A stretch of DNA of 48,664 bases from contig CAMHDJ010000016.1 of the NCBI GenBank assembly GCA_946183915.1, forward strand, positions 1-48,664, read 5' to 3'. Shown here one piece after another: positions 14,209 through 36,640 of the stretch. Position numbers and translations under genes: made by a program. The stretch is from an uncultured Bacteroidales bacterium. Its GTDB lineage: Bacteria > Bacteroidota > Bacteroidia > Bacteroidales > P3. The notes beneath the pieces were generated by a model, which was not told the DNA's origin, made no database searches, and was given only the letters and a program-made list of their open reading frames with translations. Every line of letters begins with the position of its first letter. The stretch's first letter is position 1.

Positions 14209-17200
14209 ATGAAATATAGCGAATATAAGCAATTGGATTTGACCCGTATCGGCGACGAGGTGCGCCGCTACTGGGAGGAGAACGAGACATTTGAGAAGGG
14301 CCAGCGCCTGAGCGAGGGCCACCCGTCGTTTGTGTTCTACGACGGTCCCCCGTCGGCCAACGGCAAGCCGGGCATCCACCATGTGATGGCCCGCACGATC
14401 AAGGACGTCTTCTGCCGCTACAAGGCTCAGCGGGGCTACCATGTGGACCGCAAGGCGGGTTGGGACACCCACGGCCTGCCCGTGGAGCTGGGCGTCGAGA
14501 AGAACCTCGGCATCACCAAGGAGGACATCGGCAAGAAGATCAGCGTGGACGAGTACAACCAGGCCTGCCGCACCGAGGTGTTGAAGTACAAGGACCTGTG
14601 GGACGAGCTGACGCGCCAGATGGGCTACTGGGTCGACCTGGAGCACCCTTACATCACCTTCGACAACGAGTATATCGAGACCCTGTGGTTCCTGCTGAAG
14701 AAGCTCTACGACAAGGGGCTCCTCTATAAGGGCTACACCATCCAGCCCTACAGCCCGGCCGCCGGCACGGGCCTGAGCAGCCACGAGCTGAACATGCCGG
14801 GCTGCTACCGCGACGTGAAGGACACCACCTGTGTGGCTATGTTTAAAATAGTGTTCAGTGGTGAGTGTTCAGTGTTCAGTGAGTTTTCGCAGGAGGGCGG
14901 CAGCCAACTTAACACTAATCACTTAACACTAAACACTGACATCTCCACATACGCCATTGCCTGGACCACCACGCCGTGGACCCTGCCGAGCAACACGGCC
15001 CTCTGTGTGGGCCCGAACATCGACTACGTGCTCATCGAGACCACCCATCCCTACACCGAGCAGCCCTGCCGCATCATCATGGCCAAGGCGCTGGTGGGCT
15101 CGATGTTCCCCGAGGGGAAGAGCCCGGAGTACCGGATCGTCGGCGAGTGCAAGGGCACGGCCCTCGAGGGACTGCGCTACGAGCAGCTGATCCCCTGGGT
15201 GAAACCGCGCGAGGTGAGCGACCAGGGCAGCTTCCGCATCATCCTGGGCGACTATGTCACCACCGAGGACGGTACCGGCATTGTCCACATTGCCCCCACC
15301 TTCGGCGCCGACGACGCCCGTGTGGCCAAGAAGGCCGGCATCGGCGAGCTGCTCCTCTTCGACCGCGACGGGAAGCAGCTGCCGATGGTCGACAAGCGGG
15401 GCCGCTTCGCCCCGGTGGAGGACCTCGACCCCGAGTGGGTGAAGGCCAATATGGACACCGCGCTCTACGGACAATATGCCGGCAAGTTTGTCAAGAACGC
15501 CTACGACCCCACCAAGACCGAGAAGGACATGAGCCTCGACGTGGAGCTGGTCATCATGCTCAAGGGCGAGGGCAAACTCTTCAAGAGCGAGAAGCACACC
15601 CACAGCTACCCCCACTGCTGGCGTACCGACAAGCCGGTGCTCTACTACCCGCTGGACAGCTGGTTCATCCGTACCACGGCCCTGAAGGATCGCATGATCG
15701 AGCTCAACAAGACCATCAACTGGAAGCCCGAGGCTACCGGCACGGGCCGCTTCGGCAACTGGCTGGAGAACATCGTGGACTGGAACCTGAGCCGCAGCCG
15801 CTACTGGGGTACGCCGCTGCCCATCTGGCGCACCGAGGACGGCAAGGAGGAGAAGTGCATCGGCAGCGTCGAGGAACTCCGCCAGGAGATCGACAAGGCC
15901 GTCAAAGCCGGCCTGATGGCGGAGAATTCCTACGCTGCGGCGGACTACACGAAGTTCGACCTGCACCGCCCGTACATCGACGGCGTCGTGCTGGTCAGCG
16001 ACAGTGGTAAGCCCATGCGCCGCGAACCCGACTTGATCGATGTGTGGTTCGACAGCGGCGCCATGCCTTACGCCCAGATCCACTATATGGGCGAGGAGCT
16101 GCGCAAAGACCAGTTCCCGGCCGACTTCATCGCCGAGGGCGTCGACCAGACGCGCGGCTGGTTCTACACGCTGCACGCCATCGCCACCATGTGCTTCGAC
16201 TCGGTGGCGTTCAAGAATGTCATCAGTAACGGCCTGGTACTCGACAAGAACGGCAACAAAATGAGCAAGCGCCTGGGCAACGCCGTCGACCCCTTCGAGA
16301 CCCTCGGCAAGTATGGCCCCGACGCCACCCGCTGGTACATGATCACCAACAGCCAGCCGTGGGATAACCTGAAGTTCGACATCGAGGGCGTGGACGAGGT
16401 GCGCCGCAAACTCTTCGGCACGCTCTATAATACCTACTCCTTCTTCGCCCTCTACGCCAACCTGGACGGCTTCGACTATAGCCAGAAGGACCTCGACATC
16501 AAGGATCGTCCGGAGATCGACCGCTGGATCCTCAGCGAGCTGAACACCCTGGTCAAGACCGTGGGTGACGCCATGGAGGACTACGAGCCCACGCGTGCGG
16601 GCCGTGCCATCGGCACCTTTGTCGATGCCTACCTCAGCAACTGGTATGTCCGCCTCTGCCGCCGCCGCTTCTGGAAGGGCGACATGACCGCCGACAAGGT
16701 CAGCGCCTACCAGACGCTCTACACCTGCCTTGAGACCCTCAGCCGCCTGATGGCCCCGATAGCGCCCTTCTTCAGCGAGCGCATGTTCCTCGACCTTAAC
16801 GCCGTCACCCACCGCCATCAGGTGGAGAGCGTACACCATCTGCCCTTCCCCGAGGTGCATGAGGAAATGGTGGACAAGAGCCTCGAGGAACGCATGCAGC
16901 TGGCCCAGAAGGTCTGCTCAATGGTGCTCGGCCTACGCAAGAAGAGCAACCTGCGCGTGCGTCAGCCGCTGCAGAAGATCGTCATCCCGGTGAAGGACAA
17001 CGCCATGCGCGAGCAGATCGAGCGTGTGCAGCACCTCATCTGCTCCGAGCTCAACGTGAAGCAGGTGGAGTTCCTGGCGGCCGACAACGACCTGCTGGTG
17101 AAGAAGATCAAGCCCAACTTCAAGACCCTCGGCCCGCGCTACGGCAAGGTGATGAAGGCCCTGGGCGCCGCCATCATGGCCTTCAGCCAGCAGCAGATCA

Positions 17201-35558: not shown

Positions 35559-36640
35559 CGGGTGTAGGGGGGTAAACTGATGTCGGCGAAGTCGCCCTGG
35601 AGGTACTTGAAGTAGGCCGCTATGCCTACCATGGCGGCATTGTCGGTGCAGAACTGGAAGGGCGGTATCAGCGCCTGCCAGTGGTGCTTCTGGCAGATGC
35701 GCTGCAACTCGCTCCGCAGGAACGAGTTGGCGCTCACGCCGCCGGCAATGGCCACCTGGCGCACATGGTGGTCCAGCGCCGCCCGCTCCACCTTCTTCAG
35801 CAGGAACGAGACGATCGTCTTCTGGATCGACGCGCAGAGGTCGGCCTTGTGCCGCTCGATGAAGTCGGGCTCCTCCTTCAGCCGGTCGCGCAGGAAGTAA
35901 AGGAACGAGGTCTTGATGCCCGAGAACGAGTAGTTGTAGCCCTCGATGTGGGGTGTGGCGAAGCGGAAGGCGTCGGGATTGCCCTCCCGGGCCAGCCGGT
36001 CGATCACCGGGCCTCCGGGGTAGCCGAGGTCCATGATCTTGGCCGCCTTGTCGATGGCCTCGCCCGCGGCATCGTCGATCGTGGTGCCGAGGCACTCGAT
36101 GTCGAAGTGGCTCCGCAGCAGCAGTATCTGCGTGTGTCCGCCGCTGACCAGCAGGCAGATAAACGGAAATTGCGGCCTCACCCCCAGCCCCTCTCCTGCG
36201 GAGGAGAGGGGGGTGGATAGTGGTGCGTCATTTTTCATTCTGCTCCCCTCTCCTCCCAGGAGAGGGGTTGGGGGTGAGGCTATGAAGTGGCTCAGCACGT
36301 GCGCCTGCAGGTGGTTCACCTCGATCAGGGGTTTGCCGAGGGCGGTGGCGAAGCTCTTGGCAAAACTCACCCCCACCAGCAGCGAGCCCAGCAGGCCCGG
36401 CCCGCGGGTGAAGCCCACGGCGTCGATCTCCTCCTTTCGGATGCCCGCCTGGCGGATCGCGGCGTCCACCACCGGTATGATGTTCTGTTCGTGCGCACGC
36501 GACGCCAACTCGGGCACCACGCCGCCATATTGTTCGTGAACCTTCTGGCTGGCAATGACATTGCTCAGCAGCCGGTCGTCGCGCAGGACGGCCGCCGACG
36601 TGTCGTCGCAGCTCGATTCTATAGCCAAAATAGTAGTCAT
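35555..36640 (-). CDS. tsaD: tRNA threonylcarbamoyladenosine (t6A) transferase, with an in-frame repeat insertion
   Basis: 361 residues from 36640 (MTTILAIESSCDDTSAAVL, the family start). It transfers the threonylcarbamoyl group to A37 of ANN-decoding tRNAs, working with TsaB and TsaE. Metal-site His110 and His114 lie in NHLQAH. Nucleotide motifs are LLVSGGHT, DDAAGEAIDK and CTDNAAM. Residues 121-155 (from ASPPTPLLGGEG to EGLGVRP) are encoded by paired inverted repeats. They replace a short loop before QFPFICLLV, making it about 28 residues longer than in the E. coli protein. An open frame runs upstream to 36811 but only translates the dispersed element. A -7 box (TACTTTTG, minus, 36657-36650) lies 9 bp upstream of the start, so the leader is very short. 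Confidence 0.96.
   Translation of the reverse strand: MTTILAIESSCDDTSAAVLRDDRLLSNVIASQKVHEQYGGVVPELASRAHEQNIIPVVDAAIRQAGIRKEEIDAVGFTRGPGLLGSLLVGVSFAKSFATALGKPLIEVNHLQAHVLSHFIASPPTPLLGGEGSRMKNDAPLSTPLSSAGEGLGVRPQFPFICLLVSGGHTQILLLRSHFDIECLGTTIDDAAGEAIDKAAKIMDLGYPGGPVIDRLAREGNPDAFRFATPHIEGYNYSFSGIKTSFLYFLRDRLKEEPDFIERHKADLCASIQKTIVSFLLKKVERAALDHHVRQVAIAGGVSANSFLRSELQRICQKHHWQALIPPFQFCTDNAAMVGIAAYFKYLQGDFADISLPPYTR
36175..36280 (-). repeat. Paired inverted hairpin repeat inserted in tsaD
   Basis: Arms 36175-36211 and 36245-36280 are near-perfect inverted copies (GCCTCACCCCCAGCCCCTCT as the outer 20 bases of the left arm). Each arm is itself a hairpin CCCCTCTCCT...AGGAGAGGGG. The 33-nt centre is unique and T-rich. 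The G+C pattern differs from the ileS and pyrC inserts. Confidence 0.95.

Follow-up and report, generated by a model that had tools for sequence, protein, structure and literature searches.

Protein-coding palindromic repeats in conserved genes of an uncultured rumen Bacteroidales bacterium and its sister species

Rickettsia palindromic elements (RPEs) are Rickettsia-specific repeats of 105-146 bp that lie in frame in 19 Rickettsia reading frames, the one host enzyme tested being active (PMC2229807), and coding palindromes related to them have been cited for Wolbachia and Methanocaldococcus jannaschii (in PMC2996958). Here we analyzed a stretch of 48,664 nucleotides (contig CAMHDJ010000016.1 of assembly GCA_946183915.1; hereafter the window) from an uncultured Bacteroidales bacterium belonging to a group of uncultured rumen bacteria, in which the genes ileS, pyrC and tsaD each carry a palindromic insert that keeps the reading frame. 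The source genome is designated G000 and its sister genomes of the same genus G001, G002 and so on, all genomes used being drafts. The inserts are probably small, non-autonomous and dispersed palindromic elements with protein-coding capacity, working in the manner of RPEs.

The cyanobacterial short tandemly repeated repetitive sequences are tandem heptanucleotide repeats. Heptamers of the GGGAATC type, often forming convergent inverted pairs, occur in Xanthomonas, with heptamers also present in Nostoc, and these repeats are under-represented on the coding strand of open reading frames (ORFs; PMC4692102). Repetitive extragenic palindromic (REP) units measure 20-40 bp and bear a tetranucleotide tag at one end; intragenic REPs of the GTAG and CGTC classes encode 20-30 amino acids, recB of two Xanthomonas holds different REPs at about the same site, and the CGTC class, reported in the phylum Bacteroidetes, has no dedicated transposase (PMC3733652). 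PARCEL, a palindromic repeat in coding sequence that is believed to pass from genome to genome, forms tandem repeat proteins, and the ORFs that carry it are described as generally not recognizable housekeeping genes (PMC2996958). Repeats with reading frames are also on record from enterobacteria (PMC2759123). For coding palindromes in Bacteroidales we found no paper in the full-text collection searched, most subscription papers lying outside its coverage; an earlier note on this DNA, which knew of no counterpart in Bacteroidales, is close to correct, CGTC-type REPs being on record from the phylum (PMC3733652).

The three inserts and their host genes are located in the window as follows.

14209..17616, + strand: ileS, isoleucine--tRNA ligase of 1135 aa (TIGR00392, 1013 bits against a cut-off of 621), open across the insert
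14850..14937, + strand: in-frame element of ileS, AGTGTTC heptamer, 88 nt, left arm 14850-14880, right arm 14907-14937, encoding about IVFSGECSVFSEFSQEGGSQLNTNHLTLNTD
20576..21967, - strand: pyrC, dihydroorotase of 463 aa (NF006688, 547.6 bits against a cut-off of 535)
20830..20906, - strand: in-frame element of pyrC, TAGTGGG heptamer, 77 nt, with four heptads, a core and four heptads, read as VGSGQWVVDSTRGQAPPTTHYPLPT
35555..36640, - strand: tsaD, tRNA threonylcarbamoyltransferase (TIGR03723, 386 bits against a cut-off of 296), start set by eye at the ATG of MTTILAIESSCDD
36175..36280, - strand: in-frame double-hairpin element of tsaD, 106 nt, GCCTCACCCCC...GGGGGTGAGGC, encoding SPPTPLLGGEGSRMKNDAPLSTPLSSAGEGLGVR

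The inserts, of 88, 77 and 106 bp, were present where the earlier note had placed them and kept the frame. In ileS, heptamers of the AGTGTTC type stand opposite heptamers of the AACACT type across a gap of 26 nt; in pyrC, TAGTGGG heptamers stand opposite CCCACTA heptamers; in tsaD, GCCTCACCCCC and its complement flank GC-rich hairpin arms. Three repeat families are therefore involved, not the two first counted, namely AGTGTTC, TAGTGGG and the GCCTCACCCCC...GGGGGTGAGGC double hairpin. The longest inverted arms reached 31 nt at 81% complementarity in ileS, 31 nt at 84% in pyrC and 24 nt at 96% in tsaD, and folds of the single-stranded DNA were more stable than those of shuffled sequences, with z-scores of -2.7, -5.4 and -10.2, respectively. 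Sequence alignment to solved relatives placed the ileS insert at a 4-residue connection of the isoleucyl-tRNA synthetase 8c8w and the pyrC insert at a gap relative to the dihydroorotase 2gwn; placement in a surface loop is a prediction from these alignments. An AlphaFold2 model of PyrC had a mean predicted local distance difference test score of 44 and was not used. A scan of the window against Rfam returned no family at gathering score.

Searches of the source genome with the DNA of the three inserts gave 26, 72 and 28 matching stretches, several per element. Arrays were counted in 448,664 bases of G000, comprising 20 stretches of contigs C1-C5 and the window. With overlapping periods counted separately, the strict arrays numbered 18 of period 7, 14 of period 14, 4 of period 8, 5 of period 9 and 45 of period 11, and one dinucleotide shuffle of the same bases yielded none at any period from 4 to 15. 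After merging overlaps, the density of period-7 arrays was 47, 62 and 50 per Mb in G000, G012 and G015, all of one genus, and that of 11-mer arrays was 100, 78 and 30 per Mb. In G039, which belongs to a different family of Bacteroidales, 200 kb contained no array of periods 5 to 14; with a G+C content of 0.36 against 0.54-0.59, this genome is an imperfect control. Most of the in-gene repeats are tandem 7-mers in inverted order, and the units of the elements are mainly of the AGTGNNN and AATTNNN types. A pattern of four AGTGGNN units, scanned irrespective of gene location, matched in 13 of 247 Bacteroidales genomes, most with an NN of their own, so that heptamer arrays exist elsewhere in Bacteroidales. 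Genomes G239, G094, G148 and G061, from other families of the order, contain AGTGGNN heptamer arrays, mostly each with its own NN, as for AGTGGCT in G239 (72 and 63 pattern matches).

Genes were called with a custom script based on codon usage, whose only check was its agreement with the known genes of the window. Strict period-7 arrays fell in predicted genes in 9 of 21 cases in G000, 15 of 25 in G012 and 7 of 10 in G015 (31 of 56 overall), and those of period 11 in 1 of 45, 1 of 31 and 0 of 6. The pooled ratio of arrays in genes to arrays outside was 35:26 for periods 7 and 8 against 2:80 for period 11 (Fisher p = 2e-14); genes make up 77-81% of the scanned stretches, and 7-mer arrays are somewhat rarer in them than an even spread would give. 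Inverted hairpins in G000 and G012 followed the same division: those of periods 7 and 8 were found 14 times in genes, 4 times between them and 4 times at edges, the two of period 14 both lay between genes, and those of period 11 were never in genes, 16 times between and once at an edge. Leaving out edges and including the period-14 pair, the ratios are 14:6 and 0:16 (p = 1.3e-5).

Among 29 places chosen by hand from the DNA matches and the array list, 23 were in predicted genes, 22 of these being distinct (L005 repeats L184) and some being arrays without an inverted arm. The host genes radA, rimO, purL, lpxB, nqrA and that of RNase R scored above the family cut-off; lplA and genes of the Mur-ligase type, of an M3 peptidase (two inserts) and of the lpxH type scored below their NCBIfam cut-offs, and tex, a GH97 enzyme, an O-antigen-ligase-type protein and a metallo-beta-lactamase-fold hydrolase were recognized by Pfam. 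Many inserts are flanked on both sides by the family match, the RNase R array lying near the C-terminus. One family occupies many loci within one genome, and the 22 further distinct in-gene repeats elsewhere in the genome bear out the proposal of dispersed families tolerated in frame.

The commonest family, TAGTGGG, consists of four heptads, the core AGC[A/G]C...G[C/T]GCT and four heptads back, in about 76 bp. A pattern tuned to full-length elements and applied to the sampled sequence of G000 and G012 detected 20 copies, 15 in genes and 5 between them, one of the latter being of the AGTGTTC type. All 15 gene copies (10 in G000, 5 in G012) are read on the sense strand in the same frame, a second sense frame being open in two of them and an antisense frame also in two. 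Where an in-frame TAG would fall between heptads 2 and 3, the gene copies inspected have GAG, CAG or AAG. A broader search added two gene copies, namely L202, a short piece with the usual reading of the right arm, and the divergent L220:3088 described below. Seven intergenic copies emerged from both searches, with the coding frame open in L186, L189, L086 and L087 and not open in L200, L088 and L220:11309; L186 and L088 were assessed visually, and L086 is possibly an unrecognized gene. By eye, the AATTTTC and AAAGTGG families had the same reading in most genes and species seen. The TAGTGGG family is thus polar, mostly with one strand free of stops in one frame, and nearly every gene copy uses that frame.

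Across families, an element is either a hairpin, its arms usually made of tandem units of 7 (or 8 or 9) nt, or a GC-rich double hairpin, built around a short loop. Telomerase-like end addition, a candidate for the origin of convergent arms, was dropped, since the core of the TAGTGGG copies is conserved and their length nearly fixed. Local slippage would have low-complexity loops expand on the spot with no mobility at all. In line with this, array copy number varies, several in-gene arrays lack an inverted arm, and the third loop of the M3 peptidase record P0167 contains a large tandem expansion of LTEKSEYNRIG-like units, its relatives holding other repeats there. Slippage makes neither inverted arms nor shared cores, however, and unit and core recur here as convergent arms at many unrelated loci; it is contradicted for full elements and very improbable as a general account, although it could hold for some of the 9-mer arrays without an inverted arm.

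The flanks of 16 inserts were searched in eight sister genomes (G002, G004, G007, G008, G009, G010, G012 and G015), and 93 of the 128 possible pairs were compared, with lpxH omitted, three comparisons for TGase and one for the O-antigen ligase. An array or hairpin (period array score of at least 10 or hairpin score of at least 13) occupied 34 of the 93 orthologous loop positions, against 1.15% of 2000 random coding segments. The ileS loop, judged by eye, was readable in 24 genus members, G011 giving no usable match; 11 carried a repeat array, while the loop was short in 7 and, in the other 6, longer but with no clear repeat. AGTGTTC is present in G000, and ten other members carry another repeat: TAGTGGG in G012 and G023, the AAAGTGG type in G007, AATTTTC in G001 and G004, and 8- or 9-mers in G002, in G006, G017 and G021, and in G014. 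An IleS tree built with the loop removed, in which 7 of 26 inner branches are poorly supported, required 12 or more changes of loop state. L111, from a yak relative, has tsaD-type sequence in the ileS loop.

Among the 120 database matches listed for PyrC, counting the query record and classed by chosen peptide patterns, the loop was of the TAGTGGG type in 27, AAAGTGG in 16, AGTGTTC in 7, AGTGGCC in 3, AGTGATG/AGG in 3, a 9-mer in 2, another kind in 3 and short in 59; the TAGTGGG-type records P0061 and P0104 look like arm deletions. At the tsaD site, the seven genomes compared showed the same family (G004, G007 and G012), a 9-mer array (G002) or a short loop (G009, G010 and G015). The purL loop holds AGTGTTC in G000, AATTTTC in G012, TTAAGGACC in G002, CCGGAAAAT in G007 and AACCCATTA in G009, and the radA loop TAGTGGG in G000 and G012, GGAAAGA in G008, an 8-mer hairpin in G007 and a piece of a tsaD-type element in G004, being short in G009 and G010. 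At the same loops, sister species thus carry repeats of different families, half elements or no element at all, and the differences among orthologues that the earlier note had proposed to look for are evident, often as another family at the same site. Some matches to the metallo-beta-lactamase-fold gene in sister genomes contain stop codons.

The genomes being drafts and the named relatives near the query being metagenome-assembled, an assembly artefact of short-read metagenome bins was also considered. It is scarcely credible, for separate assemblies (L090 and G002; G001 and G004) have closely similar elements at the same site, and elements recur in many protein records with their frames kept.

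Loop cores were compared in 67 inverted elements with 7- or 8-mer arms, drawn from the sampled stretches and targeted loci. The motif G[CT]TG?ACGC or its complement was found in the loop of 16 elements, which represent 12 unit families; 300 shuffles of the loops gave 0.36 such elements on average and never more than 3. In the tsaD-type family, a related motif in 4 of 14 elements (shuffled mean 0.40, maximum 3) is suggestive only. A core common to some elements with unrelated arms suggests one machinery for several arm families. Speculatively, and with rather little probability, a single machinery might keep the loop core (GCTGACGC/GCTACGC), swap the arm units and re-template the loops of essential genes in place as species diverge; were this so, re-templating with stop-free 7-, 8- and 9-mer 'alphabets' would be a standing generator of new protein sequence.

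A mobilizing enzyme was sought among PF01797 transposases, which were present in 31 of 41 genomes, with two matches in G000. Movement of the elements as REPs by a REP-associated tyrosine transposase (RAYT), as for GTAG REPs, would accord with this distribution and with the known coding of 20-30 amino acids by intragenic REPs (PMC3733652), and the ends of the tsaD element (GGGGTGAG) fit, by eye, the GGGGWSAS motif of some transposase-flanking repeats (PMC3733652). However, neither PF01797 locus of G000 had a 6-12-mer array or strong hairpin within 700 bp, and among 20 loci of the genus only L246 (G002) had 7-mer elements within that distance, two of them on one side. Around the PF01797 gene, 18 of 25 loci had an inverted repeat scoring at least 15, such as CCCCGTAGGGG, and 7 had none or a weak one; no heptad array and no GCCTCACCCC pair was among these flanking repeats. 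G008 (88% complete) and G009 (95%) had no PF01797 match, absence from a draft not being proof, yet contain in-gene 7-mer arrays. The RAYT that the earlier note had suggested as mobilizer is accordingly not supported by the 20-locus and 25-locus scans, and we consider this route improbable. The PF01797 genes at L242, L243, L248, L251, L253, L258 and others lie between short inverted hairpin repeats (CCCCGTAGGGG or CCGTGGG..CCCACGG) in a REPtron-like arrangement.

Under the reading as dispersed coding elements, an element would be copied to a new site through an enzyme or a recombination route; copies inserted antisense, in the wrong frame or within structured regions would be lost, those in flexible loops with a stop-free frame would persist, and persisting copies would later lose arms by deletion or be overwritten by another family. 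Terminal inverted repeats are present in the elements, as in miniature inverted-repeat transposable elements. Different families at one site could reflect repeated insertion, in-place replacement or recombination between species, and a number of observations weigh against the preferred reading. Transposition was not observed, no two strains were found that differ in the presence of an element, and no mobilizing enzyme was identified, PF01797 being the only enzyme family searched. The flanks of filled and empty sites have diverged too far for the element ends to be set and a target-site duplication to be defined. The seven closest other PyrC records (88-100% identical) include no empty site, all keeping the element, so that mobility within a species was not seen. 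The one-frame rule, which held for 15 of 15 TAGTGGG copies of standard length, is not absolute, as L220:3088 of G012, with an extra heptad, has its left arm and core read in another frame; the constant frame may moreover be forced, since only one sense frame is open in 13 of the 15 copies. Finally, 51 of the 67 inverted elements lack the G[CT]TG?ACGC core, TAGTGGG among them, which uses another core.

Other observations on the same side concern loop length. The purL-like loop measures 45 nt in all seven relatives compared, where it holds AATTCTC, a TTTCCAC-type unit or nothing clearly repeated, and 78 nt in G000; the purL loop measures 30-36 nt in six of eight sister genomes, with three different 9-mers by score. 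The M3 peptidase records P0125 and P0126, examined in the search for strain-level empty sites, instead share a diverged insert at the same site and of equal length, identical at 23 of 40 positions against 657 of 666 outside it. Constant length with changed units fits in-place rewriting, in which gene conversion or template switching from other copies replaces the repeat units of a loop so that the site persists and the family changes, or fast drift under a length constraint. Rewriting is possible but doubtful as the general explanation: sites that are short in many relatives need a first filling (the lplA loop has 9 nt in 5 of 7, the metallo-beta-lactamase-fold site is empty in 4 of 5, and the second M3 peptidase site is filled in G000 only and empty in 6 of 6), and the units of different families share little sequence usable for conversion.

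The edges of the ileS loop raise a further alternative, the exchange between species of whole loops or gene segments with their repeats, involving few true insertions. Repeat-bearing ileS loops usually have ..PTYAIAW as their end and short ones ..[DNE]TYAIAW, also where the two kinds are nested together in the tree; G002 (9-mer) and G023 (TAGTGGG) nest in the short-loop IleS clade, yet share the ..PTYAIAW edge with repeat-bearing loops, which could mean recombination or loss, not gain. Such exchange explains neither where the many families came from nor why they occur between genes and in over 20 unrelated genes, and we hold it unlikely as the main process.

The window contains further repeats, the first three of which were missing from the list of the earlier note.

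32111..32210, - strand: 9-mer array in the predicted gene 31849-32499, encoding SPI/SPT/GPI triplets, without inverted repeat
25292..25369, no strand: intergenic inverted 9-mer element, ATGGGCTTA / AAGCCCATT, DNA fold z-score -6.4
35503..35546, no strand: intergenic 9-mer array directly 3' of the tsaD stop codon

Long 11-mer arrays (AGGCATCAACT / TGCCTAGATGA), a type almost never in genes, lie at 30378-30500, 41724-41881, 48154-48216 and 23736-23777. A repeat of about 200 bp is present at 1-198, 13721-13922 and 36699-36910 in copies 87-89% identical, with a CTCCCTGATGA 11-mer array at one end and one copy just upstream of tsaD. Positions 22064-23016, in the predicted gene 22015-23349, hold seven 59-nt repeats, 61-73% like the reference copy and spaced mostly by 114 or 147 nt.

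Set against RPEs, the elements are alike in behavior, being long inverted-repeat hairpins found both between genes and in frame in conserved protein genes, with a stop-free frame, and tolerated there. In build they differ, being mostly tandem heptads of 76-90 bp in many unit families that differ between sister species at the same sites; only the tsaD element (106 bp) fits the RPE length of 105-146 bp, the TAGTGGG elements having about 76 bp and the ileS element 88 bp. The likeness to RPEs drawn at the outset therefore applies to behavior and not to build. Like GTAG and CGTC REPs, the elements are small palindromes in genes, and the REPs' coding of 20-30 amino acids and the recB site with different REPs are close parallels. 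Unlike REPs, they have tandem-heptad arms, no constant terminal tag and, in some elements, a GCGTCAGC/GCTGACGC core in the loop; element ends vary (AGTGGG.., AGTGTT.., GCCTCACC..), and by eye GTAG occurs within the TAGTGGG arms and CGTC in some loop cores. The RAYT association typical of GTAG-class REPs was not seen at the 20 and 25 PF01797 loci. Dispersed tandem 7-mers, here at 47-62 arrays per Mb in three genus members, are shared with Xanthomonas and Nostoc, unlike which 31 of 56 strict period-7 arrays are in predicted genes and many are defined hairpins with a reading frame. PARCEL is likewise a palindromic coding repeat, whereas the present elements are in housekeeping genes. The components are thus known separately; new in the literature covered are that one element combines them, that the hosts belong to this order, and how widely families are exchanged at fixed loops. 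These observations support a classification as coding palindromic repeats of a known kind, in unusual form and scale.

Coding palindromes have so far been described mainly from intracellular bacteria and a few others, and here a single gut Bacteroidales genome has such repeats in two dozen genes or more, many of them housekeeping genes. Family models may under-score such repeat-bearing proteins, as with lplA at 265 bits against a cut-off of 280. The variety of loop states also serves the hunt for the machinery that spreads the hairpins. With 24 further genomes of the same genus as natural replicates, the same loops, seen short, filled, half-lost or swapped, offer a measure of selfish DNA becoming protein sequence.

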